Assembly: GCA_903847285.1 (NCBI GenBank)
Contig: CAINDH010000128.1
Location: 5,011-69,010 of the forward strand
Direction: 5' to 3'
DNA: 64,000 bases
DNA from: an uncultured Verrucomicrobia subdivision 3 bacterium
GTDB lineage: Bacteria > Verrucomicrobiota > Verrucomicrobiae > Limisphaerales > UBA11358
Part shown: piece by piece, positions 5,862 to 22,519 of the stretch
How positions within the stretch are numbered: position 1 is the stretch's first letter
Layout: every line of letters starts with the position of its first letter
The notes under the pieces: generated by a model
What the model saw: only the letters and a program-made list of their open reading frames with translations
Database searches by the model: none
Told to the model about the DNA's origin: nothing
Translations under genes and position numbers: made by a program

Positions 5862-5912
5862 GTCGTTTTGGCCATAAATAATTAATAATTAGTTTTTCCC
5901 AGCCACCCAAAA

Positions 5913-6632: not shown

Positions 6633-9600
6633 ATGAGTCAAATTCTCCGCATATTGCACTTGGAGGACAACCCGGCAGACGCGCTGCTGGTGCGCGATCT
6701 TTTGGAGCATGACGGGCTGGCGGTGGATATCTGCCACGTCAGCTTGCGCGATGAGTTTTTGCAAGTGTTGCCGACGGTGAAGTGGGATGTGTTTATCTCG
6801 GACTACAAGCTGCCAGATTTCACTGGGTTGGATGCGCTCAAGATTGTCCGCGAAAAATATCCGCTGCTGCCGTTCATCCTCGTGTCTGGCACGATTGGCG
6901 AACTGGCGGCGATTGAAAGTCTCAAGTCTGGCGCGACGGACTACGTGCTCAAGCAAAACCGCGAACGGTTGCCTTCCGCTGTGCGGCGCGCGGTGGCAGA
7001 GGCGACGGAGCGGGCGTTGCGGTATGAGACACAAGAGGAGCTCAAGCGGAGTGAAAAACAATACCGCCTGCTGTTCCAGGGCAATCCGCATCCGATGTGG
7101 GTCTTTGATCTGGAGACACAAAAAATTCTGGAGGTGAATGAGGCGGCGGTGCAGCACTACGGTTATTCGCGGGATGAATTTCTAGAAATGAGCCTCGCGG
7201 ATTTACGCACGACTGACCAGTCGGGCTTGCCGCATCATGACGGAAATGCCAGCGGCCTCGTCTGGCGGCATCGCCGCAAGGATGGCATGACGATGGACAT
7301 GGAGGTGGTCTGGTCCGCACTGGCTTTCCACGGAAAATTGGCAGCACTCACGATGGCCACGGATGTGACGGTGCGCCGCCGCGCCGCGCAGCACAACGCG
7401 CTGTTTGGAAAGTTAAGCCACCAGTTGAGTGCGGCGACGACGTCGTCCGAGGCGGCGATGTTCATCTGTGAGGCGGCGGATGAATTGTTTCGATGGGATG
7501 ACTTTGCGCTGGATTTGTATTCCGAGGAAAAAGACGAGGTGGTTTCACTGTTATCTATCACGACGGTGGACGGCAAGCGCGTAGAAATTCCGGCCTCGCC
7601 CCAACCGCAGCACGCGAATGCCATCGTGCGCCGTGTCATTTCGCGTGGTGCAGAATTGATTTCTGCGCGGGAGACCGGGGAGAAATCCGGGACGACAATG
7701 ATTGCGCCTATTCGCAAAGGTATGCGGGTCATCGGCGTGCTGTTTGTGCAGGGGCGGCGCTCGCATAGTTATTCTGAAAAAGATCTGACGACGCTGCAAA
7801 CTCTGGCCGATCAGTGCGGCGGCGCTATGGAGCGCGTGCGTGCAGAAGACGAATTACGCCAGAGCCAACGTCGCTTTCACGATCTGTTTGAGAACTCGCC
7901 CGACGCCGTTTTTGTCGAGGACTTGCACGGTAATGTTTTGGATGTCAACGCCGCTGCGTGCGCCTTGCACGGTTATTCGCGTGCGGGGCTGCTCGGTAAA
8001 AATGCCATTGATGAACTCGTGCCACCCGCACGCCGAGACGGTGCGCGCGAAAATTTGGTTAAAATTGCGGCCGGCGAAGTGAAGTGGTTTGAGAGCGAAA
8101 GCATCACCGCCAACGGTCGCGTGGTGCCGGTGGAGGGGCGCGTGGTCCGCGTGGAATTTGAGGGGCAACCGGCATTGCTCTTTCACGTCCGCGATGTCAG
8201 TGAACGGCACGCAGCAGAGCTGGCGCGGCGTAGTTCCGAGGCGTTGTTCCGTTCGGTCTGGGAAAATTCCGCCGATGGTATGAGGCTTACGGATGAAGCG
8301 GGGAATATCGTAGCAGTGAACAGTGCGTATGGTCGGCTGGTCGGCATGACGCAAAATCAGCTCGAAGGCAAACCGCTTACCGTGGTGCATGCTTTGAGCA
8401 CAGATACGTCCGCCATGCTGCACGCCCATCGTTTGAATTTCCGCTCTGGCTACGTTGAGCAGAAGAGCGAGAAACAATTCACCCTCCACGATGACCGTCA
8501 GGTAGTTTATGAAATCAGCGATTCCTACGTTGAGTCCGGCGGCAAGCCGCGCCTGCTGTTGAGTCTGTTCCGCGACGTCACGTTGCAAAAACGTCTGGAA
8601 GAGCAACTCCGCCAATCACAAAAAATGGAAGCTATCGGCCAGCTTGCTGGCGGCGTGGCGCATGATTTCAATAACATCCTCACCATCATCCTTGGTCACG
8701 CGTCGTTGCTGACAATGACTCCGCTTGAGCCACGGGCGCTCGCTTCCGCCAACCAAATCAAGCAGGCCTCCGAACGAGCTGCCGGCCTCACGCGCCAGTT
8801 ACTTGCGTTTGGCCGCAAACAAATCGTCAATCCGCGCCCGCTTGACCTTAACCGCGTCGTTGGCGGCATGACGCAAATGCTAGGACGACTGCTTGGTGAG
8901 GACATTTCCTTGCAGCTAAATTTTAGCAACGAGCCCGCGATCATCGATGCCGATCCGACGATGATGGAACAGATTTTATTGAACCTCTCGGTGAATTCGC
9001 GCGATGCCATGCCCCGGGGAGGACGTCTAGCGATTCGCATCTCCATGCGCGAAGTGGACACCGCACACATCCGCAAATCCATCGAAGCCTCGCCCGGCCG
9101 ATATTTTTGCTTGAGCCACACCGACACCGGCGATGGTATTCCGCCGGAAAATTTGCAACGCATCTTCGAGCCGTTTTTTACCACCAAGGAACTCGGCAAA
9201 GGCACCGGCCTAGGCCTTGCCACGGTCTATGGCATCGTCAAGCAGCACAAAGGTTGGATCGAAATCGAAAGTGAAATGGGCAAGGGCACCACGTTCCACA
9301 TTTTTCTTCCCGCCAGCGCGGTTACCGCCTTGGATGTGGATGCCGCCGTCGAGACTCAGTTTCGCACCCTTGGCGGCACCGAGACTGTGCTTGTCGTCGA
9401 GGATGAACGTGACCTTCGCGAGATTATCACCCGCACCCTGAATCGCCACGGCTACCGCGTTTTTCAAGCCGTAGATGGCAATAACGCCTTGCAAATCTGG
9501 AACGATTACAAACACGACATCCAGCTCCTGTTTACCGATGTCATCATGCCCGGCGGCATGAACGGCCGCGAACTTGCCGACAAGCTGTTAATCGAGAAGC

Positions 9601-11944: not shown

Positions 11945-12688
11945 TCAAACAGTGGCCTGATTTTTCAACTCCAAAACTGCTTCCCGCAGTTGTCCGGCCA
12001 CCTCTTTGCGGTCGTCTGTGGTGCGAAAAAACTTCCCAAAGCGCAGTGTGGCGCGGACTGATTTCTTTCCTAACAGGTTGATCAGGTGTGGGAAAAAAGT
12101 GTGGTTGCCCCAGTAACACACGTCTTGTCGTGCATCGCCGCCGGGCAATTCGTAATGAATGCACGCAGTAGCGATTGGATGTCCACCGCGCAGCGCTGGT
12201 TCCAGCAACGACGAGCGGAAGGGCAGAACATCAGAGCCATCCGAACTTGTGCCTTCTGGGAAAATCACAACCAAAATGCCCTGGTCGAGTGCGTCCTGAA
12301 TTTCTTTGTTCACCGCGCCGACGTGTGAGCGACGTTCGCGTTCAATAAAAACAGTTCCGGCGAGCATTGCGAGCCAGCCAAATAACGGCCAGCGGCGGAC
12401 GTCAGCCTTGGACACAAACACGGATGGAGTGTTGGCGCAGATGACGAGGATATCGAGGTAGCTCAAATGATTTGAGACGAGTAATCCACTGCGGGGAATT
12501 TCACCCTCGAGCACGGTGTTGCAGCCGAAAATTTTCAGGTGGCGGCGGCAACAGAGGTTCAACCAAACCGAACGGGCTTTTCGTTTGGATTTGGCCGGAA
12601 CGAAGGCGGTAGTGAAAACATAGTTGCCGACGTTGGCGGCAACTTGCAGCAGGAACCAGCCAAGTTTGCCGGCGGCGCGAAAGGTCAT
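11945..12688 (-). CDS. Lysophospholipid-type acyltransferase (PlsC/OlsA family)
   Basis: About 247 residues. PlsC fold motifs: NHLSYLD (variant of the HX4D catalytic box), VFIERERR and FPEGTSS, with a hydrophobic N-terminal membrane-anchoring segment. Transfers an acyl chain to the hydroxyl of a lyso-lipid. Because it directly follows an OlsB-like N-acyltransferase, the likely acceptor is lyso-ornithine (amino-acid) lipid rather than lysophosphatidate; this is inferred from context. ATG 12688 (MTFRAAGKLG) is chosen; upstream codons overlap the olsB-like gene. Last gene of a five-gene minus-strand unit headed by the ECF sigma factor. Confidence 0.85.
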   Translation of the reverse strand: MTFRAAGKLGWFLLQVAANVGNYVFTTAFVPAKSKRKARSVWLNLCCRRHLKIFGCNTVLEGEIPRSGLLVSNHLSYLDILVICANTPSVFVSKADVRRWPLFGWLAMLAGTVFIERERRSHVGAVNKEIQDALDQGILVVIFPEGTSSDGSDVLPFRSSLLEPALRGGHPIATACIHYELPGGDARQDVCYWGNHTFFPHLINLLGKKSVRATLRFGKFFRTTDDRKEVAGQLREAVLELKNQATV

Positions 12689-13527: not shown

Positions 13528-14319
13528 TTAATTTTTGGTGGCGTGTGACAACTCTTCCAGCTTGGCGGAAAAAAGTTCGTAGGAATAGCGGTCCGCATTG
13601 CTTTTGCCTACATATCGAAAGACTTCTTGGCCACGACCATCCAATATAATAAGCGCCGGATAATGCACGACTTGGCCGTGAAATTTGTAGCCATCAGGAA
13701 TTCCAAACGCATTCGCCAGCGTCGCATCCGGGTCGCGATAAATTGTCAGTTTGGACGCTTCGCCGCCGAGATCCGCCGTCCATTGTTTGATCGCTGCCTC
13801 AGAATCCGGCTTAATGAAAACGTGAATCACCCGCGCATCGCCCGTCGCTTTTTCGGAATAGGTGCGCGTGTATTTCAAGCAGTAGGGACATTCTGTTTTC
13901 AGCAGAAAGTGTAGCGCCACAAATTTTCCTTTGGCGGCTGAAATCTTAAACGTGTTGGTATCGGTGGCGCTTTGCAGGCTGAAATCAGCGGGAGCAGAAG
14001 CGGCGATTTGCGCCGATAGCGTAGCGGCGGCGATGAATAATTTAATCCGCAGCCGAGCCTCGCCTGAAAAAGTCTGCGTCATGGATTCGGCCACTTTGTC
14101 CGAATGCGTCTGCACGGCCTGTTGCACAAAAGTTACCTGCTGCGTATAGCGGCGGCACCACTTGCACAGCAGTAAATGTAGCCGCAGCCCGAATCGCTGG
14201 TGCCAAGGTAGTTCGCGGTCAAGCGAGGCGGAATGCAAACGCGTGGCGGTTTTGCAGTCTGGTGAAAGATTCGCCAGGACACCACCCAAGGCCTTAATAA
14301 ACGTCGTCAGCTGATTCAT
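13528..14319 (-). CDS. ZAS anti-sigma-like domain fused to a thioredoxin-fold domain
   Basis: 263 residues. Residues 1-90 form a zinc-binding anti-sigma (ZAS) domain with Cys22, His48, Cys52 and Cys55. This Cys-X25-His-X3-Cys-X2-Cys spacing matches the neighbouring anti-sigma factor, which also shares the L-H-x3-C-x-W-C-x-R-Y core. A hydrophobic stretch at 93-111 (IKLFIAAATLSAQIAASAPA) looks like a membrane anchor or uncleaved signal. Residues 113-263 are a thioredoxin/AhpC-like domain with TECPYC (Cys144, Cys147) and FRYVGKSNAD. The likely topology is cytoplasmic ZAS and periplasmic thioredoxin, which could couple periplasmic redox state to sigma release. Own promoter at 14386-14411. The reading frame is continuous. 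Alternative: the ZAS part is vestigial and only a thioredoxin works. Confidence 0.82.
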   Translation of the reverse strand: MNQLTTFIKALGGVLANLSPDCKTATRLHSASLDRELPWHQRFGLRLHLLLCKWCRRYTQQVTFVQQAVQTHSDKVAESMTQTFSGEARLRIKLFIAAATLSAQIAASAPADFSLQSATDTNTFKISAAKGKFVALHFLLKTECPYCLKYTRTYSEKATGDARVIHVFIKPDSEAAIKQWTADLGGEASKLTIYRDPDATLANAFGIPDGYKFHGQVVHYPALIILDGRGQEVFRYVGKSNADRYSYELFSAKLEELSHATKN

Positions 14320-14385: not shown

Positions 14386-14411
14386 GTCGGTTAAGAACGA
14401 GAATCCTTACA
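14386..14411 (-). promoter_or_regulatory. ECF-type promoter (TGTAAGG-N15-CGAC) before the ZAS-thioredoxin gene
   Basis: On the minus strand TGTAAGG, 15 bases, CGAC. The -35 element overlaps the stop codon of the anti-sigma gene. Identical elements and spacing occur at five other sites in this island. Confidence 0.75.
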
Positions 14412-14721
14412 ACTTTTTTTGGGCCTCAGATTTGAGGTGCAACACGATGCGATGTTTAGCTTCGGGTGACAATCCTCGGGCGGGAAGTTCTGCCGTGTGT
14501 TCATCCAGGTGGGGCGAGGCTTTATGCATCCACTCCAAGTGCTGACAATAGCGTTTGCACCAGACGCAGATCAGAAAATGCAGACGCATCTTCAGTCGCG
14601 CCCGCCAGCCCAGCGGCTGTTCTTGCGCGCGCGAGGCCAGTCGGGAAATTTCCATACACGTTGGCGTGTGGTTCCAAATCCAGATGGCCAGCCGCGCTTT
14701 TAATCCAGCGACCATTTTCAT
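14407..14721 (-). CDS. ZAS-family anti-sigma factor
   Basis: 104 residues with no membrane segment, so probably cytoplasmic. Zinc ligands Cys22, His48, Cys52 and Cys55 have the exact C-X25-H-X3-C-X2-C spacing of ZAS anti-sigma factors such as RsrA, which release their sigma factor on thiol oxidation or metal loss. The ATG overlaps the sigma stop (ATGA), so the pair is translationally coupled, as usual for sigma/anti-sigma partners. The N-terminal half is clearly paralogous to that of the downstream thioredoxin fusion. An extra Cys59 close to the motif could take part in a disulfide. Confidence 0.85.
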   Translation of the reverse strand: MKMVAGLKARLAIWIWNHTPTCMEISRLASRAQEQPLGWRARLKMRLHFLICVWCKRYCQHLEWMHKASPHLDEHTAELPARGLSPEAKHRIVLHLKSEAQKKL

Positions 14722-15356
14722 TCGGCCACGCCCTCGTTACCAAACCAGTTCGTTTCCAGACAGCGGCGCAGCGCCATCCGTGCGCGATGCAGCATCACCC
14801 AGAGATTGCTTTCGGAGATGTTCAGCAACCCGCAAATCTCTTTGCTATCCACGCCATCTACTTCGCGCAAATTGAAAACGGCGGCGACATTTTTCGGCAA
14901 CTTGTTCGAGCAATCATGAAAAGTTTTCCAGAACACTTCGCTGTCTAAACTCGCGCCAGGGCTCGTCCATTCCTGCGGGCCAAGCTCATGAATCCACCCG
15001 TCCTTGAACATGCCGTCCGGCACAAAGCGGTCGCTCTCCTCGTCCGAATAAAATTCCATGTCCGTGAACGATGTTTCGCGGCTGGCTTTGCGGTAGTAAT
15101 CGTAAATTTTATTTTTCAGCACGCCGACCAGCCAACTTTTTTCTGCCGACCGACCTTGAAATTTCTGGCCACCTTTGAGGGCGGCGAGAAAAGTTTCCTG
15201 AACGGCGTCCTCTGCTTTCGCCGGATCACGCAGGCGAATCAGCGCATACTTGAAGAGGTAATCGCCATGCAAATCCACCCAGCGTTCCGGGTCTGAAAGA
15301 CCGGGTGAGGGCGGCAAGCCATCCACAGGCTGGAGCGAACTTGAATCCTTATCCAT
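14718..15356 (-). CDS. ECF-type RNA polymerase sigma factor
   Basis: 212 residues. Region 2 has YLFKYALIRLRDPAKAEDAVQ and ETFLAALK, followed by SWLVGVLKNKIYDYYRK (region 2.4). Region 4 has LPKNVAAVFNLREVDGVDSK and NISESNLWVMLHRARMALRR. ATG 15356 (MDKDSS) is preferred over the longer frame beginning at 15416. It heads a five-gene unit: anti-sigma, ZAS-thioredoxin, OlsB-like, PlsC-like. Inference: it reads the TGTAAGG-N15-CGAC promoters nearby. No good copy of that motif lies before its own gene (only AAATGT-N15-CGAC), so strict autoregulation is not evident. Confidence 0.93.
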   Translation of the reverse strand: MDKDSSSLQPVDGLPPSPGLSDPERWVDLHGDYLFKYALIRLRDPAKAEDAVQETFLAALKGGQKFQGRSAEKSWLVGVLKNKIYDYYRKASRETSFTDMEFYSDEESDRFVPDGMFKDGWIHELGPQEWTSPGASLDSEVFWKTFHDCSNKLPKNVAAVFNLREVDGVDSKEICGLLNISESNLWVMLHRARMALRRCLETNWFGNEGVAE

Positions 15357-15424
15357 CCGAAAATACTGGCGATTTGTCCGAAAAAAGCAAACTTCGTCGG
15401 AATTCAATTGGAGCACATTTCTTC

Positions 15425-15450
15425 TGTAAGGTTTTGCCGGGCCGGGCGAC
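15425..15450 (+). promoter_or_regulatory. ECF-type promoter (TGTAAGG-N15-CGAC) of the FMN reductase operon
   Basis: TGTAAGG, 15 bases, CGAC, ending 10 bases before the ATG at 15461. Transcription would start within a few bases of the start codon. Confidence 0.78.
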
Positions 15451-15460
15451 CAATTGCTGA

Positions 15461-16015
15461 ATGATTGTCATTATCAGCGGAACCAATCGGCCTGGGAGCA
15501 ACACTCTCAAGGTTGCCAGCCAACTCGCCGCAACTTATGAATCACTTGGCGTCCAAACGCAATTACTCAATCTGGCCGAGTTGCTGCCGGAAGTTTTTCT
15601 GCCCACGGCCTATGCCGAAAAACCGGCGAGTTTTGAAAAATTTAGCGCCGCCATTCTTGCCGCCGATGGCTTGGTCGTGGTCACGCCCGATTACAACGGC
15701 GGCGTGCCCGGCGTCTTGAAATATTTCATTGATCTCCTGCCGTTCCCGGCGAGCTTCGAGCTACGGCCCGTTTGTTTCGTCGGACTGGCGGCGGGTGTTT
15801 GGGGCGCGCTGCGTTCCGTTGAACAGTTGCAGGCGATCTTCGGCTATCGCAATGCCTACATTTTTCCCGAACGCGTATTCATGCCCGGCATCGGAAAATT
15901 GCTCAATGAATCCGGCCAATTCACGAATCCTGAAATGGTGAAACGCCTGGGCAAACAAGCAGAAGGCTTCGTCGGCTTCGTGGAAAGCCTGCGCGAAAAA
16001 AAACTGCGCCCATGA
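15461..16015 (+). CDS. NAD(P)H-dependent FMN reductase
   Basis: 184 residues, flavodoxin-like fold. The N-terminal phosphate loop SGTNRPGSNT and the central TPDYNGGVPGVLKYFID are diagnostic of the NADPH-dependent FMN reductase (SsuE/ArsH-like) family. Reduces FMN with NAD(P)H in the cytoplasm. First of four genes joined by ATGA overlaps or a 4-base gap; the last is an MsrQ-like haem membrane protein. In E. coli MsrQ can be fed by a flavin reductase, so this enzyme is a plausible cytoplasmic electron donor (inference). Confidence 0.9.
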   Translation: MIVIISGTNRPGSNTLKVASQLAATYESLGVQTQLLNLAELLPEVFLPTAYAEKPASFEKFSAAILAADGLVVVTPDYNGGVPGVLKYFIDLLPFPASFELRPVCFVGLAAGVWGALRSVEQLQAIFGYRNAYIFPERVFMPGIGKLLNESGQFTNPEMVKRLGKQAEGFVGFVESLREKKLRP

Positions 16016-16266
16016 TCGCCGTAGTATTTTTAATCCTAATTGGAGTATATCTGGCCGGCGGATTTCTCTTCGCCATTCCATTTGTTTTAATGGGCGTTAA
16101 AAAAATTGATCCGCACGCCACTCATGGCTCGTGGGGATTTCGCATGCTGATTTTTCCCGGTGTCGTTGCCTTCTGGCCGCTGCTGCTGCGCCGCTGGATG
16201 AAGGGAATTCAAGCGCCACCGGAAGAAAATACAGCGCACCGCTCGCTGGCGAACAACGCATCATGA
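16012..16266 (+). CDS. Small two-helix membrane protein
   Basis: 84 residues, not assigned to a named family. It has two hydrophobic helices, VVFLILIGVYLAGGFLFAIP and LIFPGVVAFWPLLL, joined by a short loop with DPHATHGSWGFR. The second helix ends in RRWMKG, indicating a cytoplasmic C-terminus. The start overlaps the FMN reductase stop and the stop overlaps the next start. Likely a subunit or assembly factor of the membrane redox complex encoded with it (inference from strict coupling). Confidence 0.75.
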   Translation: MIAVVFLILIGVYLAGGFLFAIPFVLMGVKKIDPHATHGSWGFRMLIFPGVVAFWPLLLRRWMKGIQAPPEENTAHRSLANNAS

Positions 16267-16757
16267 TCCGCCCGTTGCGTCAACGTCACCGCGGCATTTT
16301 TCTCGCGTTGGGAATTGCGCTGCCGGTAGCATTCGCCGTGGCCATTGCCGCGCGCAAGCCAGTGGCGGAAACCAATTCGGTGCCCAAAGAATTTTCCCCA
16401 ACCACTGTTTCGTTCACTGCCGACATCTGGAGCCGCGCGGATTTGTTCCCGAAGATGCCGGTGCAAGTGCGCCTGCGGCGAGAACAGTCTGGCACGGGAA
16501 ATTTTGCCGTGACGCTCGTCGCCGCCAAAGATTTTATGAAGCCAGACTTGCTGGTGTATTGGTCGCCGGGACATCAAAGCATCACAAACACCTTGCCTTC
16601 CAATGTGATTTTGCTGGGTGCGTTCGACTCGCCGCTACTACCGCTGCCCGTCGTCGCCAAAAATTCTGACGGCCTGCTCGTGCTTTACAGTCTGGCCGAC
16701 AACGAAATCGTGGACGTGTCGATACCTATCCGATTCAACCAAGCAGCGATTCCATAA
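16263..16757 (+). CDS. Membrane-anchored or secreted protein of unknown function in the redox operon
   Basis: 164 residues, family not recognised. A basic N-terminus (MIRPLRQRHR) and a hydrophobic helix at about 11-29 (GIFLALGIALPVAFAVAIAA) form a signal anchor; the rest is predicted to be periplasmic. It contains the strand-rich segments TTVSFTADIW, PVQVRLRREQ and LLVYWSP, ending IVDVSIPIRF, which suggests a beta-sandwich. No cysteines or obvious cofactor motifs. ATG 16263 overlaps the previous stop (ATGA). It could be a periplasmic partner of the haem protein that follows. Confidence 0.7.
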   Translation: MIRPLRQRHRGIFLALGIALPVAFAVAIAARKPVAETNSVPKEFSPTTVSFTADIWSRADLFPKMPVQVRLRREQSGTGNFAVTLVAAKDFMKPDLLVYWSPGHQSITNTLPSNVILLGAFDSPLLPLPVVAKNSDGLLVLYSLADNEIVDVSIPIRFNQAAIP

Positions 16758-16761
16758 ACTC

Positions 16762-17412
16762 ATGTCCGTCAATTACACCGCCGTTCAATGGAATCGCCAA
16801 AAGAAGTTTTATGACTTCGCACTGGTTGGCGGCGTGGCGGCATTTCTATTCTCGTTTGCGGCGGCGACAAAAAATCTTTTCCCACTCATCACGGATGAAA
16901 TTCTAATCATCCGCACATTCGGAGTGGCGGCGTTCGTGTTACTCCACGTCATCCTTTGCATCGGGCCGCTTTGTCGGATGAATTCAAAATTTCTCCCGCT
17001 GCTCTACAATCGCCGGCACGCGGGCGTCACTTGTTTCCTTCTCGCACTTGTTCACGCCGTGTTTGTCGTCGCGACATATCACGCGGGCAGTGATACGAAT
17101 CCGCTCTTGAGCATATTCGTTTCCAGCCCGCTCACCGGCTCGGTGGCGGGCGTGCCGTTCCAGCCGTTCGGATTTTTTGCATTGGTGATTTTGTTTCTAC
17201 TCGCCGCGACTAGTCACGATTTCTGGCTGGCGAACTTGACCGCGCCAGTTTGGAAAGCGTTGCACATGGGTGTCTATTTCGCCTACGCGCTGCTGGTGCT
17301 GCACGTCGCCTTTGGCACGCTGCAAGGCGAGGTTAGTAGGGTTTATGTCGCAACGATGGCTTTCGGCTTTCGGCAACGCTTTGATCAAGCCGGCCTTCAT
17401 GAATGGCACTAG
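16762..17412 (+). CDS. Ferric reductase-like (MsrQ/YedZ-like) haem membrane protein
   Basis: 216 residues, about six hydrophobic helices. Histidine pairs 12-13 residues apart in two helices ([27 protein letters not shown]) fit the bis-haem pattern of the ferric-reductase transmembrane domain. MsrQ-type proteins pass electrons from quinol or flavin to a periplasmic methionine sulfoxide reductase. Here the gene converges on an MsrB-type reductase. ATG 16762 follows the upstream stop by 4 bases. Odd: the reading frame runs into the tail of msrB on the other strand (216-bp overlap). The last 25 or so residues (from [12 protein letters not shown]) look unlike a membrane protein, so the C-terminus may be eroded. 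Confidence 0.8.
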
Positions 17413-17949
17413 CTGGTAGCCGTAACCCGCCGCGGCCATTTGTGCGAGCGGAATAAATTTAAGCGACGCGGAGTTTATGCAGTATCGGAGGTGCGTCGGG
17501 CCTGGGCCGTCGTCAAATACGTGGCCCAAATGCGAATTCGCATCCGCTGAGCGCACTTCGGTTCGTTCCATGCCAAAAGCCGTGTCGGTCTTAGCGACTT
17601 TTTTTTTTTCGTCTACTGGCTTGGAGAAACTCGGCCAGCCACAGCCGGAATCAAATTTGTCAAGCGAGCTGAATAGGGCTTTGCCGGACACGACATCCAC
17701 ATAAATTCCCGGCGCGTGTTGGTCCCAGTATTCATTGGCAAAAGCTGGCTCGGTGGCGGCTTCCTGCGTGACCTTATATTGCATGGCGGTGAGCTTTTCT
17801 TTGCGCTCGGCGGGCGGGATGGGTTTGAAATTATTCATCGTAAAATCGATCGGGGCTAAACGTTCGCCGGCCGATTCACCGGGGCGGCAACCGGCCATCA
17901 GCAGCGTTAAAATCGCTGTGCCGAATAACCCGTAAATAAAACTTTTCAT
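17197..17949 (-). CDS. msrB: Peptide-methionine (R)-S-oxide reductase, lipoprotein
   Basis: MsrB domain with [21 protein letters not shown] and [11 protein letters not shown] (catalytic Cys). The N-terminus [21 protein letters not shown] is a lipoprotein signal with the lipobox cysteine, so it repairs oxidised methionine in envelope proteins. ATG 17949 is chosen: the earlier ATG 17955 lies only 2 bases from the promoter -10 element. The MsrB fold should end near GYGYQLVPF. The remaining roughly 65 residues are read antisense through the ferric-reductase-like gene and look like a lost stop codon. Probable reductant: the TlpA-like protein next door. Confidence 0.88.
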
Positions 17950-17957
17950 ACTCATGC

Positions 17958-17983
17958 GTCGGGTTGAGTGCGGTTTCCTTACA
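17958..17983 (-). promoter_or_regulatory. ECF-type promoter (TGTAAGG-N15-CGAC) of msrB
   Basis: Minus-strand TGTAAGG, 15 bases, CGAC, 8 bases before ATG 17949. Its -35 element forms an inverted repeat (CCTTACAC-N11-GTGTAAGG) with the -35 element of the divergent tlpA promoter. Confidence 0.78.
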
Positions 17984-17996
17984 CAAATTCACCGTG

Positions 17997-18022
17997 TGTA
18001 AGGATTACTGCTGGTCGCCGAC
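17997..18022 (+). promoter_or_regulatory. ECF-type promoter (TGTAAGG-N15-CGAC) of the TlpA-like gene
   Basis: TGTAAGG, 15 bases, CGAC, 8 bases before ATG 18031. Back-to-back with the msrB promoter. Confidence 0.78.
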
Positions 18023-18030
18023 AAACCGGT

Positions 18031-18561
18031 ATGAAAAAAATAAAAAAAGTTAGCACGGTCATATCACTCGCGTTGGTTTCACTCGCCACGCTTTTGTTTA
18101 ATTCAAGTGTTTCGATGGCGGGCGAGACCAACGAAGTTAAAAACGCCACGCTCGCGCCGAGTTGGGAGCTAACAGATTTGGACGGCAAGACCATTCACTC
18201 CACCGACTTCAAAGGCAAGGTGGTCGTCCTGAATTTTTGGGCGACCTGGTGCCCGCCGTGCCGCGCCGAAATCCCTGGTTTTATCGCTCTGCAGAAAAAA
18301 TACGCGACGCAGGGACTTACCGTCATCGGTGTTTCCGTGGATCAGGCAAGTTTGAAAACCATTAAGTCGTTCACGAAGAAGAACGACATCAATTATCTAG
18401 TCGTCCAGTCAGACAAGAAGATCGAGGATGCATTTGGTGGAATTGATGCTTTGCCGACGACATTCATCATTGACCGCAGCGGTCACATCGTGAAGCAACA
18501 TTTGGGATTCGCGAATGAATCCGAGTTTGAGGCAGAAATCAAATCGCTGTTGAAGCTGTAA
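18031..18561 (+). CDS. TlpA/ResA-family periplasmic thioredoxin
   Basis: 176 residues with a signal peptide (KKIKKVSTVISLALVSLATL, processed near SMAGE). The thioredoxin fold has FWATWCPPC (active site), VIGVSVD and ALPTTFIID (cis-Pro loop). A thiol-disulfide reductase of the periplasm. Because it is divergent from msrB under a mirrored promoter pair, it probably supplies reducing equivalents to MsrB or repairs disulfides (inference). ATG 18031 is chosen; the upstream extension overlaps the promoter. DUF1223 follows after 36 bases and is probably co-transcribed. Confidence 0.93.
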   Translation: MKKIKKVSTVISLALVSLATLLFNSSVSMAGETNEVKNATLAPSWELTDLDGKTIHSTDFKGKVVVLNFWATWCPPCRAEIPGFIALQKKYATQGLTVIGVSVDQASLKTIKSFTKKNDINYLVVQSDKKIEDAFGGIDALPTTFIIDRSGHIVKQHLGFANESEFEAEIKSLLKL

Positions 18562-18597
18562 TTCTTTGCCGCGCTGCTTGAACGTTCCTGACTATTT

Positions 18598-19377
18598 ATG
18601 TCATTCAAGAACCCCAGAAAAATTATCGCCACGATATTGTTCGCGGCGATGTCGGTGAGCGCTCAAACCAACCGCCTCCAATTCCAAAGCGCGTCGGAGC
18701 GAACGGCGTTGCTGGAGCTATACACCTCCGAAGTATGCAGCAGTTGTCCGCCCGCCGAAGCGTGGCTATCGGGGCTAAAAGAGTCGCCGCGTCTGTGGAA
18801 AGATTTCGCTCCCGTCGCGTTTCATGTGGATTACTGGGATTATCTCGGCTGGAAAGACTCGTGGTCCGATGCGGAATTTTCCGAACGCCAGCGCAGCTAC
18901 GCGCAACTTTGGCACGCCGAAAATATCTACACGCCAGAATACGTCCTCAATGGCCAGGAATGGCGCAATTGGTTCACTGGTAAAAACGGCCCTAAGTCCG
19001 ATAACGAACGCGTGGGCATTCTCGCGGTGACTTCTACCGACACGAATCGCTGGCAGGTGAGCTATGTCCCGGAGAAGATTTCCAACGCGCATTACGAAAT
19101 CCATGCGGCGTGGCTGGTGGGTGGAATTATTTCCGACGTGAAGGCCGGAGAAAATCGCGGGCGCAAACTGCCGCATGATTTCGCCGTGGCGAATCTGGTG
19201 CAAATCGGGCTGACGAACACGAACGGCTGGGCCAGGGGAAAATTTATTCTCGCACCACCGCGCACCAATGCCGGCAAAACTTCCGCGCTGGCCGTTTGGG
19301 TAACGCGTGCCGGCGAATTGCAACCGCTACAAAGCACCGGCGGCTGGATTATCGCGCCCAGCCAAAACAAATTGTAA
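18598..19377 (+). CDS. DUF1223 family secreted thioredoxin-like protein
   Basis: 259 residues with a signal peptide ending around SVSAQ. The motif ELYTSEVCSSCPPAEAWL (CxxC) with FHVDYWDYLGWKDSW and YTPEYVLNG is diagnostic of DUF1223, a thioredoxin-like family of the envelope with no established reaction. The neighbours (TlpA-like, MsrB, YHS) favour a thiol-redox or metal-related role. Its stop codon overlaps the -35 element of the next promoter, so the YHS gene is separately transcribed. Confidence 0.87.
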   Translation: MSFKNPRKIIATILFAAMSVSAQTNRLQFQSASERTALLELYTSEVCSSCPPAEAWLSGLKESPRLWKDFAPVAFHVDYWDYLGWKDSWSDAEFSERQRSYAQLWHAENIYTPEYVLNGQEWRNWFTGKNGPKSDNERVGILAVTSTDTNRWQVSYVPEKISNAHYEIHAAWLVGGIISDVKAGENRGRKLPHDFAVANLVQIGLTNTNGWARGKFILAPPRTNAGKTSALAVWVTRAGELQPLQSTGGWIIAPSQNKL

Positions 19378-19398
19378 GGTTCCCCCGTTTCCCGCGAC
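19373..19398 (+). promoter_or_regulatory. ECF-type promoter (TGTAAGG-N15-CGAC) of the YHS gene
   Basis: TGTAAGG, 15 bases, CGAC, 10 bases before ATG 19409. It overlaps the DUF1223 stop codon. Confidence 0.78.
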
Positions 19399-19408
19399 GA
19401 ATGAGGGT

Positions 19409-19861
19409 ATGAAAAAATTATCACTCATTCTCCTCGCGGTCGGACTGGCGCTCCCGGTTTTTGCCCAAACCAAAACCCTCCTCAATCTGGATAAAACCGG
19501 TGTGGCTATTCAAGGCTACGATCCCGTCGCTTTCTTCACAGACAAGAAGCCGGTGAAGGGCGATGCCAAATTTGTCGCCAAGCACGACGGTGCAATTTAT
19601 CAGTTCGCTTCCAAGGAACACAAAGATCTGTTCAAGGCCGACCCGGCGAAATACGAACCCGAATTCGGCGGCTACTGCGCCTACGGCGTTTCCCGAAACA
19701 AACTCGTGGAGATTGATGTGGACGCGTTTCAAATCGTTGACGGCAAGCTGTTGCTTCAATACAGCAAAGGCGTTCGCGACGATTTTAATGAAGATGCCAA
19801 AGGCAATCTCGCCAAGGCCAACGCCAACTGGACCGGCCTCGTAGCCAAGAAGGGAAAATAA
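19409..19861 (+). CDS. Secreted YHS-domain protein
   Basis: 150 residues with a signal peptide (MKKLSLILLAVGLALPVFAQ). The YHS core is GYDPVAFFTDKKPVKGDAKF, then IYQFASKEHKDLFKADPAKY and EFGGYCAYGVS, a family often associated with metal-handling proteins. ATG 19409 is supported by the signal peptide and by the promoter 10 bases upstream; an in-frame extension upstream has no such features. A member of the ECF island, expressed from its own promoter. Exact role unknown; stress-linked metal or haem handling is a guess. Confidence 0.88.
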   Translation: MKKLSLILLAVGLALPVFAQTKTLLNLDKTGVAIQGYDPVAFFTDKKPVKGDAKFVAKHDGAIYQFASKEHKDLFKADPAKYEPEFGGYCAYGVSRNKLVEIDVDAFQIVDGKLLLQYSKGVRDDFNEDAKGNLAKANANWTGLVAKKGK

Positions 19862-19863
19862 AC

Positions 19864-19889
19864 TGTAAGGACTCCCGCCTCGTCCCGAC
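19864..19889 (+). promoter_or_regulatory. ECF-type promoter (TGTAAGG-N15-CGAC) of the DoxX-like gene
   Basis: TGTAAGG starts 3 bases after the YHS stop, then 15 bases and CGAC, with 15 bases to ATG 19905. Confidence 0.76.
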
Positions 19890-19904: not shown

Positions 19905-20321
19905 ATGTGTTCGCTCACCAAAAAACAGAAAATCGCCAGTTGGCTGGTCCGACTGCCGGCGGCAATCATTCTCTTGCAGACTTTGTTCTTCAAATTCACC
20001 GGCGCACCGGAGTCCGTTTACATCTTTACCACAGTTGGGCTGGAACCTTGGGGGCGCTACGGTTCCGGCGTGGTGGAACTCATCGCGGCGGCACTGCTTC
20101 TCTCAACTTGCCATTGCTGGTTGGGCGCGATGCTGGCGCTCGGCGTGATGGGCGGAGCGATCATGTCGCACCTGACCAAACTCGGCATCGTAGTGCAAGA
20201 TGATCACGGCTTACTCTTCGCACTCGCCATCACGGTGGCGATTTGCAGTCTTATCACGCTGGTGATTCATCGCCGACAAATTCCATTCCTCGCCAAATAT
20301 TTTCCCAACGCCAATCCATGA
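19905..20321 (+). CDS. DoxX-like four-helix membrane protein
   Basis: 138 residues with four hydrophobic helices (LPAAIILLQTLFFKF; YGSGVVELIAAALLL; AMLALGVMGGAIMSH; LLFALAITVAICSLITLVI). The pattern LLQTLFFKF ... GSGVVELIAA fits the DoxX/DoxX-like superfamily, which is recurrent in oxidative and thiol-stress clusters. It has its own ECF-type promoter. The stop overlaps the next start (ATGA), so the DinB-like protein is coupled. Confidence 0.82.
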   Translation: MCSLTKKQKIASWLVRLPAAIILLQTLFFKFTGAPESVYIFTTVGLEPWGRYGSGVVELIAAALLLSTCHCWLGAMLALGVMGGAIMSHLTKLGIVVQDDHGLLFALAITVAICSLITLVIHRRQIPFLAKYFPNANP

Positions 20322-20866
20322 ACTCAACTGTCACCAACGAACGTCAAGAACTCATTCAATCGGTCGTCGAAGTGTTGCGCCAAGGTGAATTGCTGCTGAC
20401 GGAAATTTCCGATGAAACCTATGTGCATAAAGTGGTCGTAGCCTTCGACGCCTCCATCGGCGGACATTATCGGCATTGCCTCGATCATTTTCGCGCCTTG
20501 CTGGAGGCGGCGGACGCGGGCGATTTGAATTACGATCATCGTGAACGCGGCACGTTGATTGAGAATGACCGATTCGCGGCGCTGAACGCCACCCGAGAAT
20601 TGCGTGAAGGTTATGAAAAATTTCAGGTAGCGCTACTCGCTCGCCCATTGAATGTGACGTGCAAAACCAGTTACGCCAGCAGCGGCTCACAAGCGTCGCC
20701 TTCCACGGTCGGTCGCGAAGTCATGTATGCCGTGGCGCACGCGGTGCACCACTACGCGCTCATCGGCGTGATTGCGGGTATCATGGAATTGTCGCTACCG
20801 GCCGGTTTTGGCGTGGCGCCGTCCACGCTGAAACATCAGGCGCAAACCGTTCCTGCTGCTGCCTGA
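20318..20866 (+). CDS. DinB-superfamily-like four-helix protein
   Basis: 182 residues, soluble, helical. Histidines spaced as in DinB/YfiT metal-binding bundles: GGHYRHCLDHF in the second helix and AHAVHHYALIG in the last. Such proteins are metal-dependent, and some are thiol (bacillithiol/mycothiol) transferases; the reaction here is unknown. ATG 20318 overlaps the DoxX-like stop. The DedA/ATP-grasp gene follows after 6 bases, so this run is probably one operon down to 23254. Confidence 0.72.
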   Translation: MNSTVTNERQELIQSVVEVLRQGELLLTEISDETYVHKVVVAFDASIGGHYRHCLDHFRALLEAADAGDLNYDHRERGTLIENDRFAALNATRELREGYEKFQVALLARPLNVTCKTSYASSGSQASPSTVGREVMYAVAHAVHHYALIGVIAGIMELSLPAGFGVAPSTLKHQAQTVPAAA

Positions 20867-20872
20867 GTCTCC

Positions 20873-22519
20873 ATGATCGAAGCGCTGCAAATCGCTCCCG
20901 CAACCGTCACTGAGTGGCTGCCTCTCTGGAAGGCTGGTGGATTTTTTCTCGCCACCTTTGTTTTGGAAGACGCCGCTGCCGTGGGCGCTGGCTTGTTGCT
21001 CGCCGCTGGGGAAATTTCCTGGCCCGCTGCATTCACCGCGTGTTTTCTCGGCATCTGGTTCGGCGATGTCGGCCTCTACGCGCTGGCCCGGTTCGCTGGT
21101 CGCGAATGGTTTGAGCGCTCCTCGTTTCGCAAACATTCCGCCAAAGTGATCCGCAGCGAACAATGGTTCGCCCAACGTGGCACGGCGATTTTAATTTTCA
21201 GCCGCCTCATCCCTGGAACCCGGTTGCCGACGTATCTCGCGGCCGGATTTCTCCGCGTGCCACTGCCGCGTTTTCTTTTAATCACCGGCGCAGCGGCGTT
21301 TGGGTGGACGTTTGCGATCCTTTATCTCGCACAATTATTTGGCAATCAAGTCACGCATTGGCTTAGCCAATACAAATCCGCGGGGCTGATTCTGCTCGTT
21401 GGCGGCATAGCCCTTTTGCTCGCGCTGCAACTGCTTCGCAAAGTCACTTTGGATTTTCATCCTAAAAAACTTTATACTGCCATCATGCGTTGGACACATT
21501 GGGAATTCTGGCCGATGTGGTTTTTCTATCCGCCCGTGGCGATTTACTATGTCTGGCTTTCGCTCAAGCACCGCAGTGCGCTGCTGCCCACGGCAGCGAA
21601 TCCCGGAATTTTTTCCGGCGGTGTCGTGGGCGAATCCAAAATCGCCACGCTGAAAGAATTATCTACCAACAGCCCGGAGTTCACGGCGGAAGCGGTGTTG
21701 GTGACGGGAAATACTTTTTTAGAACGTCGGGTGTCGTTGGAGGAAGTAGTGTCGCGGTTCGGATTTCCTCTCATCCTCAAACCTGACATGGGTCAACGCG
21801 GTGTGGGCATCAAGCTTATCCGCAACGGCGAGCAAGCGGAGCAGTATCTGCGTCAGACCAGCGCGCCGCTCATCGCGCAACGCTACGCGGCAGGCCCATT
21901 CGAGGCGGGAATTTTTTATTACCGCTTCCCCGGCATGCCGCGCGGGAAAATTTTTACCATCACCGAAAAAGTTTTTCCCACGCTCACAGGCGACGGACGC
22001 TCCACAATTTCCGAGCTGGTCTGGAATGATGACCGCGCCCGCTTCATGGCGGAAAAATATCTCGCCCGCTTCAACGACCGGCAGAACGGCATTCCCGCCG
22101 TCGGCGAAATCACTCCGCTCGTCGCCGCTGGCAATCACGCCCAGGGTTGTATTTTCCGCGATGGTATGAGGTGGAATTCACCCCCTCTGGAGCAGTGCAT
22201 TGACGACATTTCTCAGAAGCTCAACGGATTTTTCATTGGCCGCTATGACATTCGTTTTGCCAGCGAGGACGATTTACGTGCCGGAAAAAACTTCCAGATC
22301 ATCGAGTTGAACGGCGCGGCGGCGGAGGCCACCAGTATTTATGACGCGCGGAATTCGGTGTGGATGGCGTATCGCACGCTGTTCCGGCAATGGGACTTGA
22401 TCTTCGCCATCGGTGCAGAAAATCGGCGGCGCGGTTGCGCCACGACCAAACCCGGACTTCTCTGGCGAACGTGGCGCGACTATGCTGCGCTGGCGGCGAC
22501 CTATCCCGCCGCAGATTAA
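20873..22519 (+). CDS. Fusion of a DedA/VTT membrane domain with an ATP-grasp domain
   Basis: 548 residues. Residues 1-190 are a DedA (VTT/SNARE-associated) membrane domain: FFLATFVLEDAAAVGAGLLL, GDVGLYALARFAGREW, and the family loop FSRLIPGTRLPTYLAAGF with its arginine and proline. Residues 205-530 form an ATP-grasp-like ligase: PLILKPDMGQRGVGIKLI (nucleotide loop), APLIAQRYAAGPFEAGIFYY, GDGRSTISELVWND and FQIIELNGAAAE (metal-binding Glu/Asn). DedA proteins help recycle lipid carriers or flip lipids; ATP-grasp enzymes form amide or ester bonds. The fusion hints at ATP-dependent modification of a lipid-linked substrate (inference). Confidence 0.85.
   Translation: MIEALQIAPATVTEWLPLWKAGGFFLATFVLEDAAAVGAGLLLAAGEISWPAAFTACFLGIWFGDVGLYALARFAGREWFERSSFRKHSAKVIRSEQWFAQRGTAILIFSRLIPGTRLPTYLAAGFLRVPLPRFLLITGAAAFGWTFAILYLAQLFGNQVTHWLSQYKSAGLILLVGGIALLLALQLLRKVTLDFHPKKLYTAIMRWTHWEFWPMWFFYPPVAIYYVWLSLKHRSALLPTAANPGIFSGGVVGESKIATLKELSTNSPEFTAEAVLVTGNTFLERRVSLEEVVSRFGFPLILKPDMGQRGVGIKLIRNGEQAEQYLRQTSAPLIAQRYAAGPFEAGIFYYRFPGMPRGKIFTITEKVFPTLTGDGRSTISELVWNDDRARFMAEKYLARFNDRQNGIPAVGEITPLVAAGNHAQGCIFRDGMRWNSPPLEQCIDDISQKLNGFFIGRYDIRFASEDDLRAGKNFQIIELNGAAAEATSIYDARNSVWMAYRTLFRQWDLIFAIGAENRRRGCATTKPGLLWRTWRDYAALAATYPAAD

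Follow-up and report, generated by a model that had tools for sequence, protein, structure and literature searches.

Among described regulators, Neisseria sigma-E and Haemophilus RpoE2, not Caulobacter SigF, constitute the closest known system to the locus analyzed here. The published promoter consensus of Neisseria sigma-E joins a -35 element, GTMAGBWTT, through a spacer of 12-13 nucleotides to a -10 element, CGTCTAAH (PMC2893595). In Haemophilus influenzae, RpoE2 (HrsE) has a ZAS anti-sigma factor, as our system appears to have, controls periplasmic MsrAB as well as a DoxX operon, and exerts very limited control over its own gene, and its targets are induced by HOCl (PMC7907618); its likeness to our system is drawn from this published description. 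Streptomyces SigR and RsrA likewise combine a thiol-oxidant response with a ZAS anti-sigma factor, as in the system proposed here (PMC2893595). Caulobacter SigF and the ECF16 group use promoters reported as GTAACC-N16-CGAA (PMC3511200) or (T/C)GTAAC-N17-CGAA, with an anti-sigma factor built on a six-helix DUF1109/NrsF domain (PMC8315932).

We analyzed a 64-kb stretch of DNA (the window) from an uncultured Verrucomicrobia subdivision 3 bacterium (Limisphaerales; UBA11358; GCA_903847285.1, contig CAINDH010000128.1, positions 5,011-69,010, forward strand). Six sites in this window are very probably promoters of an ECF sigma factor of the TIGR02943 family, encoded at 14718-15416, that would be controlled by the ZAS proteins ZAS1 and ZAS2 and would drive repair of envelope thiols and methionine sulfoxide. 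Judged by sequence, we class the system as a Neisseria sigma-E variant and not as a separate class, because the TIGR02943 family is shared and the -35 element and spacer agree, with a different third base in the -10 element.

Six sites around one sigma gene

The heptamer TGTAAGG occurs six times in the window, counting both strands, and every copy is followed by 15 bases and then CGAC:

14386..14411, minus strand: putative promoter 1, for ZAS2-redoxin; shares bases with the end of ZAS1
15425..15450, plus strand: putative promoter 2, for the FMN reductase operon; in the interval that separates it from the divergently oriented sigma gene
17958..17983, minus strand: putative promoter 3, for msrB
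17997..18022, plus strand: putative promoter 4, for the TlpA/ResA-like gene; opposite in strand to promoter 3 and separated from it by 13 bases
19373..19398, plus strand: putative promoter 5, for the YHS gene; shares bases with the stop codon of DUF1223
19864..19889, plus strand: putative promoter 6, for the DoxX-like gene

The original prediction had named these six copies and no other, with about 0.03 copies expected by chance; all six proved exact, recalculation with equal or observed base frequencies gave the same expectation, and spacers of 10-14 and 16-21 bases between TGTAAGG and CGAC gave no copies on either strand of the window. The exact form alone stands out, because the signal at up to two mismatches was weak (19 matches in the window, where shuffled sequence averaged 11.5 and two of 100 shuffles reached at least 19). 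A matrix trained on 70 sites from relatives, with the window and loci L132, L098, and L133 excluded and the close loci L003 and L005 retained, scored the six sites at 24.9-32.5, the next window site at 14.2, and the best site in 20 simulated windows at 16.4. With this matrix, neither a seventh, weaker site in the window nor a motif-type promoter upstream of the window sigma gene rose above simulated background. No Rfam element reached its gathering score between positions 12000 and 23000.

Every copy also precedes a gene start, as had been claimed. The distance from CGAC to ATG is 66 bases for ZAS2-redoxin, 10 for FMN reductase, 8 for the TlpA-like gene, 10 for YHS, 15 for the DoxX-like gene, and 8 for msrB (ATG at 17949), or 2 if the upstream msrB ATG at 17955 is counted. 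Both half-sites of promoter 1 are conserved in a five-sequence alignment. A chance or repeat artefact, such as a promoter look-alike produced by duplication of upstream sequence or by coding constraint, would fit the near-background count of two-mismatch matches and the copies in L013, with one in L014, that lie inside sigma coding sequence and were set aside. Six exact copies nevertheless far exceed the expectation, the spacers and flanks of the six sites are only 32% identical to one another, and relatives keep copies in the same places although their spacers have diverged. We consider such an artefact practically negligible and rejected a repeat or chance origin because of the dissimilar flanks and diverged spacers.

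The sigma gene and two candidate anti-sigma genes are arranged as follows:

14718..15416, minus strand: ECF sigma gene of the TIGR02943 family; start GTG at 15416 or ATG at 15356; Pfam Sigma70_r2 and r4_2
14407..14721, minus strand: ZAS1, candidate small zinc anti-sigma; start overlaps the sigma stop (ATGA)
13528..14319, minus strand: ZAS2 fused to redoxin; N-terminal ZAS, central helix, and thioredoxin-fold domain with CPYC

The sigma factor matched TIGR02943 at 187 bits (cut-off 162.2), and a sigma profile found no second sigma gene among the window's 515 open frames, in keeping with the earlier view that the only one lies inside this island. Against NF052368 antisigmaE (cut-off 50), ZAS1 scored 46.6 bits, slightly below the cut-off, and ZAS2 62.6 bits. 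By eye, the ZAS1 translation contains C22-x25-H48-x3-C52-x2-C55.

The motif among relatives

Several lines of evidence tie the motif to this sigma group. First, a de novo dyad scan of 50 neighborhoods of related sigma genes (from 43 genomes, a few counted twice or three times), in which scoring was limited to the 400 commonest dyads for each gap, ranked dyads of the motif first and second, at 30 and 31 of the 50 loci against 0.73 and 0.88 expected. Second, these neighborhoods held 54 matches with N15, seven with N16, and one with N13, and none with any other spacer from 9 to 23. The fuller consensus is TGTAAGG-WTT-N12-CGAC-NMA: directly after TGTAAGG, W, T, and T were present at 94%, 58%, and 60% of 92 sites, and the second and third bases after CGAC were A in 34 and 50, respectively, of 54 sites from the 50 neighborhoods. 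Third, the nearest relative found (L001, on the same contig as L132) also has six copies, and the genes behind them correspond to the six in the window, the FMN reductase counterpart matching over 33 residues only. Finally, of 42 genomes that carry a TIGR02943-like sigma gene, 16 had at least two copies of the motif followed by NAA, whereas only one of 154 genomes lacking such a gene did (Fisher p 2e-11). This form had no copies in 22 of the 42 sigma-positive genomes, five of which have CGAC-NCA forms near the sigma gene.

Such a dyad might instead be the operator of a transcription factor encoded elsewhere, with the sigma gene a bystander; the sigma link consists of location and co-occurrence, and in relatives some copies are not on the sigma gene's contig. 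We judge this highly improbable: the dyad is asymmetric and favors a particular distance to the start codon that follows, its extended consensus closely resembles the published one of a sigma factor in the same family, and it tracks TIGR02943-like sigma genes over the 196 genomes, with no N15 copy in 20 neighborhoods of other ECF genes. Also quite improbable is that the sites serve another ECF sigma factor, with its gene at some other place in the genome, and that the island sigma has other targets. Genomes of the order do contain many ECF-like genes (up to 18 family-model matches per genome, mostly distant ones), our search for window sigma genes covered 64 kb, and in six relatives, though not in the window, the sigma gene itself stands behind a motif copy; its position in these relatives would also fit a cascade. 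The motif nonetheless follows closeness to the island sigma, with an N15 copy in 17 of 20 neighborhoods whose sigma scores at least 250 bits to the window sigma versus 13 of 29 lower-scoring ones, and the Neisseria member of the family is reported to have nearly the same promoter (PMC2893595). An N15 copy was missing in 20 of the 50 neighborhoods; their sigma factors show at most 51% identity in 16 cases and 69-72% in three.

That the sites are promoters of the island sigma is also consistent with the position of start codons. An open ATG lay 8-10 nucleotides after CGAC at 28 of the 92 sites against 1.98 expected, in a range chosen after the histogram was seen, and at 50 of the 92 no open ATG lay within 20 bases of CGAC. 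Because of this excess, many transcripts may be leaderless. Taken together, the de novo scan, spacing, ATG distance, co-occurrence, and matrix support the prediction of an ECF-type -35/-10 marking a small regulon around the island sigma gene.

In relatives, which the original prediction had proposed to search at a fixed 15-nucleotide spacing, N15 is preferred and sigma-linked, but raw genome-wide counts do not beat those of the reversed pattern (46 versus 54 in 11 genomes, 72 versus 58 in 196 genomes). With N13, the reversed pattern had 26 matches and the motif itself four. We did not use raw counts as evidence, because the reversed pattern is about equally frequent; only its spacing, its position, and its link with sigma genes set the motif apart. 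Downstream of the 92 sites, three had no ORF, and 25 ORFs matched no window protein; of ten of these scanned with Pfam, eight had a family match. Since we always chose the longest frame, the downstream ORFs probably include some spurious ones. L014 contains further copies of the form [TC]GTAAGG-N15-CGTC, whose downstream ORFs have no assigned name, and L079 and L080 contain no clear motif copy.

Relation to Neisseria sigma-E and other systems

The window system resembles that of Neisseria in several respects. First, meningococcal sigma-E (paired with the anti-sigma MseR) and gonococcal Ecf belong to TIGR02943, as does the window sigma, with 40% identity across 84% of the query; the gonococcal protein scored 284 bits. 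Second, the Neisseria -35 element with its 12-13-nucleotide spacer corresponds to N15-16 after GTAAGG, in agreement with the window motif, and TGTCAGT-N15-CGTCTAA, 2.6 kb upstream of the gonococcal sigma gene on the same strand, fits the published consensus (PMC2893595). Third, a predicted ZAS anti-sigma, ZAS1, is encoded directly downstream of the window sigma, as in the Neisseria type, and its Cys/His spacing equals that of meningococcal NMB2145 (Cys4/His30/Cys34/Cys37; PMC2893595). Finally, Msr and DoxX targets are described in Neisseria (PMC2893595, PMC7907618), and an MsrB gene (strong match) and a DoxX-like gene (under cut-off) both stand behind the motif in the window.

By contrast, the third -10 base is A at all six window sites (CGAC rather than CGTC), and the second base after CGAC is not always A. 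The window differs from the Neisseria system in further ways: Pfam scans of 16 window proteins gave no match to DUF692 or DUF2282, there are two ZAS genes, the second fused to redoxin, the motif copy upstream of sigma that autoregulation of the Neisseria type would entail is absent, and targets of this type often have ATG at or near the predicted start. Mycobacterium tuberculosis SigH uses W81, I85, and N88 at the third -10 base (PMC6411747). By eye, from spacing, both window-type and Neisseria-type sigma factors have the same or similar counterparts, so the cause of the CGTC/CGAC difference may lie elsewhere. We found no residue that explains it; the counterpart of N88 is N in both groups and H in L007 and L010. 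With a conserved -35 element next to it, the change lends itself naturally to testing -10 recognition by ECF region 2.

The ECF16 group, which includes Brucella BcrS, resembles the window system in having Msr targets, a DoxX target in Caulobacter, and a -35 element with GTAA (PMC3511200, PMC8315932). The original prediction had pointed to Caulobacter SigF as the user of a similar element and to a possibly related but distinct class here, but TGTAAGG-N15-CGAC departs from GTAAC(C)-N16-17-CGAA, and neither candidate anti-sigma in the window matches DUF1109, both being of the ZAS type; promoter and anti-sigma thus exclude SigF/ECF16 as nearest relative. Streptomyces SigR differs from the window system in sigma family and promoter.

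In the literature searched, we found no described target set for sigma factors of this order. The analysis pairs one sigma group with a predicted promoter, candidate anti-sigma genes, and a regulon from sequence alone, across a mostly uncultured order, and links this group to the system already described in Neisseria and Haemophilus; an envelope-repair response of the sigma-E type may be older or more mobile than the known cases.

Predicted regulon and proposed mechanism

The predicted targets are of the oxidative-damage repair type, as originally proposed:

15461..16015, plus strand: NADPH-dependent FMN reductase family gene (PF03358, 109.4 bits)
16012..16266, plus strand: ORF in the FMN reductase operon, with overlapping start; small, probably membrane protein (by eye), no Pfam match
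16263..16757, plus strand: ORF in the FMN reductase operon, no Pfam match
16768..17412, plus strand: MsrQ-like ferric-reductase-fold membrane protein at the operon end; start not certain, scanned from 16639 (PF01794, 50.4 bits; NF003831 MsrQ, 40.5 bits, below cut-off 130)
17197..17955, minus strand: MsrB methionine-R-sulfoxide reductase, likely start 17949 (TIGR00357, 192.3 bits, cut-off 113); lipoprotein-type signal LMAGC (by eye)
18031..18561, plus strand: TlpA/ResA-like thiol-disulfide oxidoreductase (WCPPC), probably secreted (AhpC-TSA, 101 bits; NF002854 ResA subfamily, 118.4 bits, below cut-off 170)
18598..19377, plus strand: DUF1223 protein, probably cotranscribed (PF06764, 151.8 bits)
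19409..19861, plus strand: YHS-domain (seleno)protein family gene (NF041384, 145.9 bits, cut-off 70)
19905..20321, plus strand: DoxX-like membrane protein, weak match (DoxX_2, 23.0 bits; DoxX, 22.3 bits; both under cut-offs)
20309..20866, plus strand: DinB-family gene, overlapping the DoxX-like end (PF05163, 27.2 bits, cut-off 23)

We propose that RNA polymerase carrying the island sigma reads the six sites as -35/-10 elements, with region 4 recognizing TGTAAGG(WTT) and region 2 recognizing CGAC(NMA), and that transcription would begin about nine bases after CGAC, which for many repair genes is at or beside the start codon. ZAS1, encoded directly behind the sigma factor, would hold it as long as the cell is unstressed, and oxidation of ZAS cysteines would free it. 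Thiol oxidation, of the HOCl type or another, is our best guess for the inducer; in the meningococcus, none of the oxidants tried is described as eliciting a response of sigma-E targets (PMC2893595), and family membership therefore does not reveal the inducer. Freed sigma would then direct a seemingly mostly exported repair kit, comprising lipoprotein MsrB, the TlpA-like reductase, FMN reductase with the MsrQ-like membrane protein, and the YHS, DoxX-like, and DUF1223 proteins, and would also induce the second anti-sigma, ZAS2, closing the loop.

ZAS2, predicted to be sigma-induced, could, speculatively and in our view with low probability, be a membrane-spanning redox sensor, with a cytoplasmic ZAS domain, a captured redoxin signal peptide that now serves as an internal membrane helix, and a redoxin domain that reads periplasmic thiol oxidation; if so, it would report envelope damage directly to the cytoplasmic sigma that orders repair. 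In an alignment with six stand-alone redoxins, the central helix aligns with signal peptides. The protein matches Pfam Redoxin and AhpC-TSA, and its AlphaFold2 model has a mean pLDDT of 80.9 and a pTM of 0.60. The fusion occurs in three clusters, the window's own included, among the 120 clusters listed. In relatives, an ORF resembling the 16263..16757 gene stands behind the motif at two sites and DinB-like ORFs at four.

Six promoter-like sites and one sigma gene in the window

Direct pattern matching found the candidate ECF −35/−10 motif TGTAAGG-N15-CGAC, in exact form, at all six positions originally predicted, and TGTAAGG had no seventh copy in the 64 kb. Each motif copy precedes a gene or operon:

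14386–14411 (−), ZAS2-redoxin
15425–15450 (+), FMN reductase operon, whose last gene encodes an MsrQ-like membrane protein
17958–17983 (−), lipoprotein-type MsrB
17997–18022 (+), TlpA/ResA-like gene, then DUF1223
19373–19398 (+), YHS gene
19864–19889 (+), DoxX-like gene, then a DinB-family gene

Recalculation returned the predicted chance expectation of ~0.03 exact copies, and the dyad had zero copies in the window at spacers of 10–14 and 16–21 bases. A dispersed-repeat origin was rejected because spacers and flanks were each only 32% identical on average among the six sites. A matrix built from 70 sites in relatives (window and loci L132, L098, and L133 excluded; L003 and L005, also close, retained) picked exactly these six window sites, with scores of 24.9–32.5; the next window site scored 14.2, and the maximum in 20 simulated windows was 16.4.

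The sigma gene and two candidate zinc anti-sigma (ZAS) genes are arranged as follows:

14718–15416 (−), ECF sigma gene with Sigma70 regions 2 and 4; TIGR02943, 187 bits (cut-off 162)
14407–14721 (−), ZAS1, overlapping the sigma stop; Cys/His pattern
13528–14319 (−), ZAS2-redoxin, whose own motif copy overlaps the ZAS1 end

By eye, translations of both ZAS1 and ZAS2 contain C22-x25-H48-x3-C52-x2-C55; the literature rule, as excerpted, is C/H-X23-26-H-X3-C-X2-C (PMC7907618). A profile of 16 sigma sequences found no second sigma gene among 515 window frames of at least 60 residues, as the original prediction held. The motif precedes sigma itself in six relatives, and no copy lies ahead of the sigma gene in the window.

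Association of motif and sigma factor in relatives

First, a de novo scan of 50 neighbourhoods of TIGR02943-like sigma genes from 43 genomes (6-mer/4-mer dyads, gaps of 10–22, scoring limited to the top 400 by frequency at each gap, motif not supplied) ranked TGTAAG-N16-CGAC highest (30/50 loci vs 0.73 expected) and GTAAGG-N15-CGAC second (31/50 vs 0.88). Several further high-ranking dyads were shifted versions of the same motif, and the remainder may be conserved coding sequence. Spacers of 15 bases accounted for 54 hits in 30 of these loci, N16 for seven hits in seven loci, and N13 for one hit; every other spacer between 9 and 23 gave zero. The N15 motif was absent from 20 neighbourhoods of other ECF genes, where N23 gave one hit.

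Second, the motif occurred in 17 of 20 neighbourhoods whose sigma scored at least 250 bits against the window sigma and in 13 of 29 scoring lower, and was absent from the one below 100 bits. In the 20 neighbourhoods without an N15 copy, sigma identity was at most 51% in 16 and 69–72% in three, and one held a 58-residue fragment.

Third, 196 genomes of the order were split into 42 that carry a TIGR02943-like sigma (best match at least 113 bits, next tier 88; genome lists hand-transcribed) and 154 others. At least two copies of the motif followed by NAA were present in 16/42 vs 1/154, and this exception has a 58-residue match to a TIGR02943-like gene at a contig end. At least one copy was present in 20/42 vs 8/154. 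The NAA form was absent from 22 of the 42 sigma-positive genomes, five of which have CGAC-NCA forms near sigma. Raw genome-wide counts are no help, as the reversed control pattern is equally common (motif 46, reversed 54 in 11 genomes; 72 and 58 in all 196). Split by class, the motif had 61 copies in sigma-positive and 11 in other genomes, and the reversed pattern 7 and 51, respectively. The N13 version gave 4 hits vs 26 for its reversed form in 11 genomes.

Putative target genes and the ZAS2-redoxin fusion

We assembled 92 sites from the window (6), six loci from a sigma-relative search, and L082–L141. An ORF resembling a window protein followed 64 of them, including the window's own six: ZAS2-redoxin 17 (ZAS part 13, redoxin part 4, judged by alignment length), YHS 11, DoxX 6, sigma 6, MsrB 5, TlpA 4, DinB 4, FMN reductase 3, acetyltransferase 3, DUF1223 2, and others 3. 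The downstream ORF had no window-protein match at 25 sites, and no ORF followed three; unmatched ORFs included MsrA, four short-chain dehydrogenases (one scanned), and a GMC oxidoreductase. In L132 (the contig of L001), copies precede counterparts of the same six genes, with the FMN reductase match covering 33 residues only. Spacers of orthologous sites were 45% identical (318/705 positions); their half-sites are identical because sites were selected by half-sites. The putative regulon resembles a kit for repairing thiols and methionine sulfoxide, and several members have signal peptides by eye. We infer a response to envelope oxidation.

In L129, two motif copies lie just downstream of a TIGR02943-like sigma gene on the same strand, each ahead of a small Cys-rich protein with CKG-repeat tails (6851–7099 and 7519–7788). 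By eye these resemble bufferin-type peptides; the one scanned had no Pfam match.

ZAS2-redoxin joins a ZAS anti-sigma domain in frame to a redoxin. Among the best 120 of 1472 matches, coverage reached at least 98% in three clusters, the window's included, and was 57–72% in the others listed; six of the latter, when aligned, were stand-alone redoxins. Residues 92–108, IKLFIAAATLSAQIAAS, align with signal-like N-terminal segments of stand-alone redoxins and are weakly hydrophobic (1.47 over 17 residues). An AlphaFold2 model (pLDDT 80.9, pTM 0.60) predicts that the N-terminal part is helical, with a helix also at 86–107 and a thioredoxin-like fold.

Consensus of the probable promoters and relation to Neisseria sigma-E

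Across the 92 sites, the bases directly 3′ of TGTAAGG were A/T (94%), T (58%), and T (60%), positions 4–6 upstream were 67–73% A/T, and the ninth base past CGAC was a purine in 86%. Because eight loci had been fetched with an NAA-demanding pattern, bases past CGAC were read in the 50 neighbourhoods instead (54 sites); the second was A in 34/54 and the third in 50/54. The purine peak suggests that transcription begins ~9 bases past CGAC. An ATG with at least 60 open codons lay 8–10 bases past CGAC (a range picked after the histogram: offset 8, 14; 9, 2; 10, 12) at 28 sites, where 7405 control CGACs from these loci give an expectation of 1.98, and within 0–20 bases at 42/92 sites vs 10.6% of controls. 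If transcription starts as predicted, messages with a near ATG would have no leader or almost none. The ZAS2 genes are an exception: in the window and in four relatives, CGAC and ATG are 66–83 bases apart, and their alignment shows both half-sites as conserved blocks.

The sigma-regulon reading is supported in kind, and Neisseria sigma-E is the closest relative identified, in place of Caulobacter SigF, the comparison originally drawn; it shares TIGR02943 membership, −35 element, and spacing. TIGR02943 takes in the gonococcal sigma (284 bits), the top-listed match in a plasmid collection (40% identity, 84% of query); nearer named relatives may exist because this collection holds few chromosomes. 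In excerpts of PMC2893595, the meningococcal consensus, from putative promoters of 24 genes, is −35 GTMAGBWTT, spacer 12–13, and −10 CGTCTAAH, with an adenine six bases past the −10 motif that agrees with a mapped gonococcal start. At the gonococcal locus, TGTCAGT-N15-CGTCTAA lies 2.6 kb upstream of the sigma gene and on its strand. The third −10 base is T in Neisseria and A in the verrucomicrobial promoter. The sigma factor described as most similar to Neisseria SigE is Haemophilus RpoE2, which is ZAS-held, targets MsrAB along with a DoxX operon, and has been linked to HOCl (PMC7907618, excerpts). Neither peroxide nor diamide nor singlet oxygen elicited a response from the meningococcal sigma-E targets, according to the excerpts of PMC2893595. 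We found no verrucomicrobial TIGR02943 regulon in the literature searched, outside which most subscription journals lie.

The Neisseria −10 form occurs as [TC]GTAAGG-N15-CGTC at 5873, 7835, and 9062 of a Planctomycetia sigma neighbourhood (L014). L081, from a Sphingopyxis plasmid that encodes a TIGR02943 sigma, carries TGTAAGG-N15-CGACCAA at 8502 and, at 4784, TGTAAGC-N15-CGACCAA ahead of a TVP38/FAD oxidoreductase gene. The window, too, has a TVP38-type (VTT) gene, at 20873–22519, encoding a VTT membrane domain and a long C-terminal part that has no Pfam match and appears ATP-grasp-like by eye.
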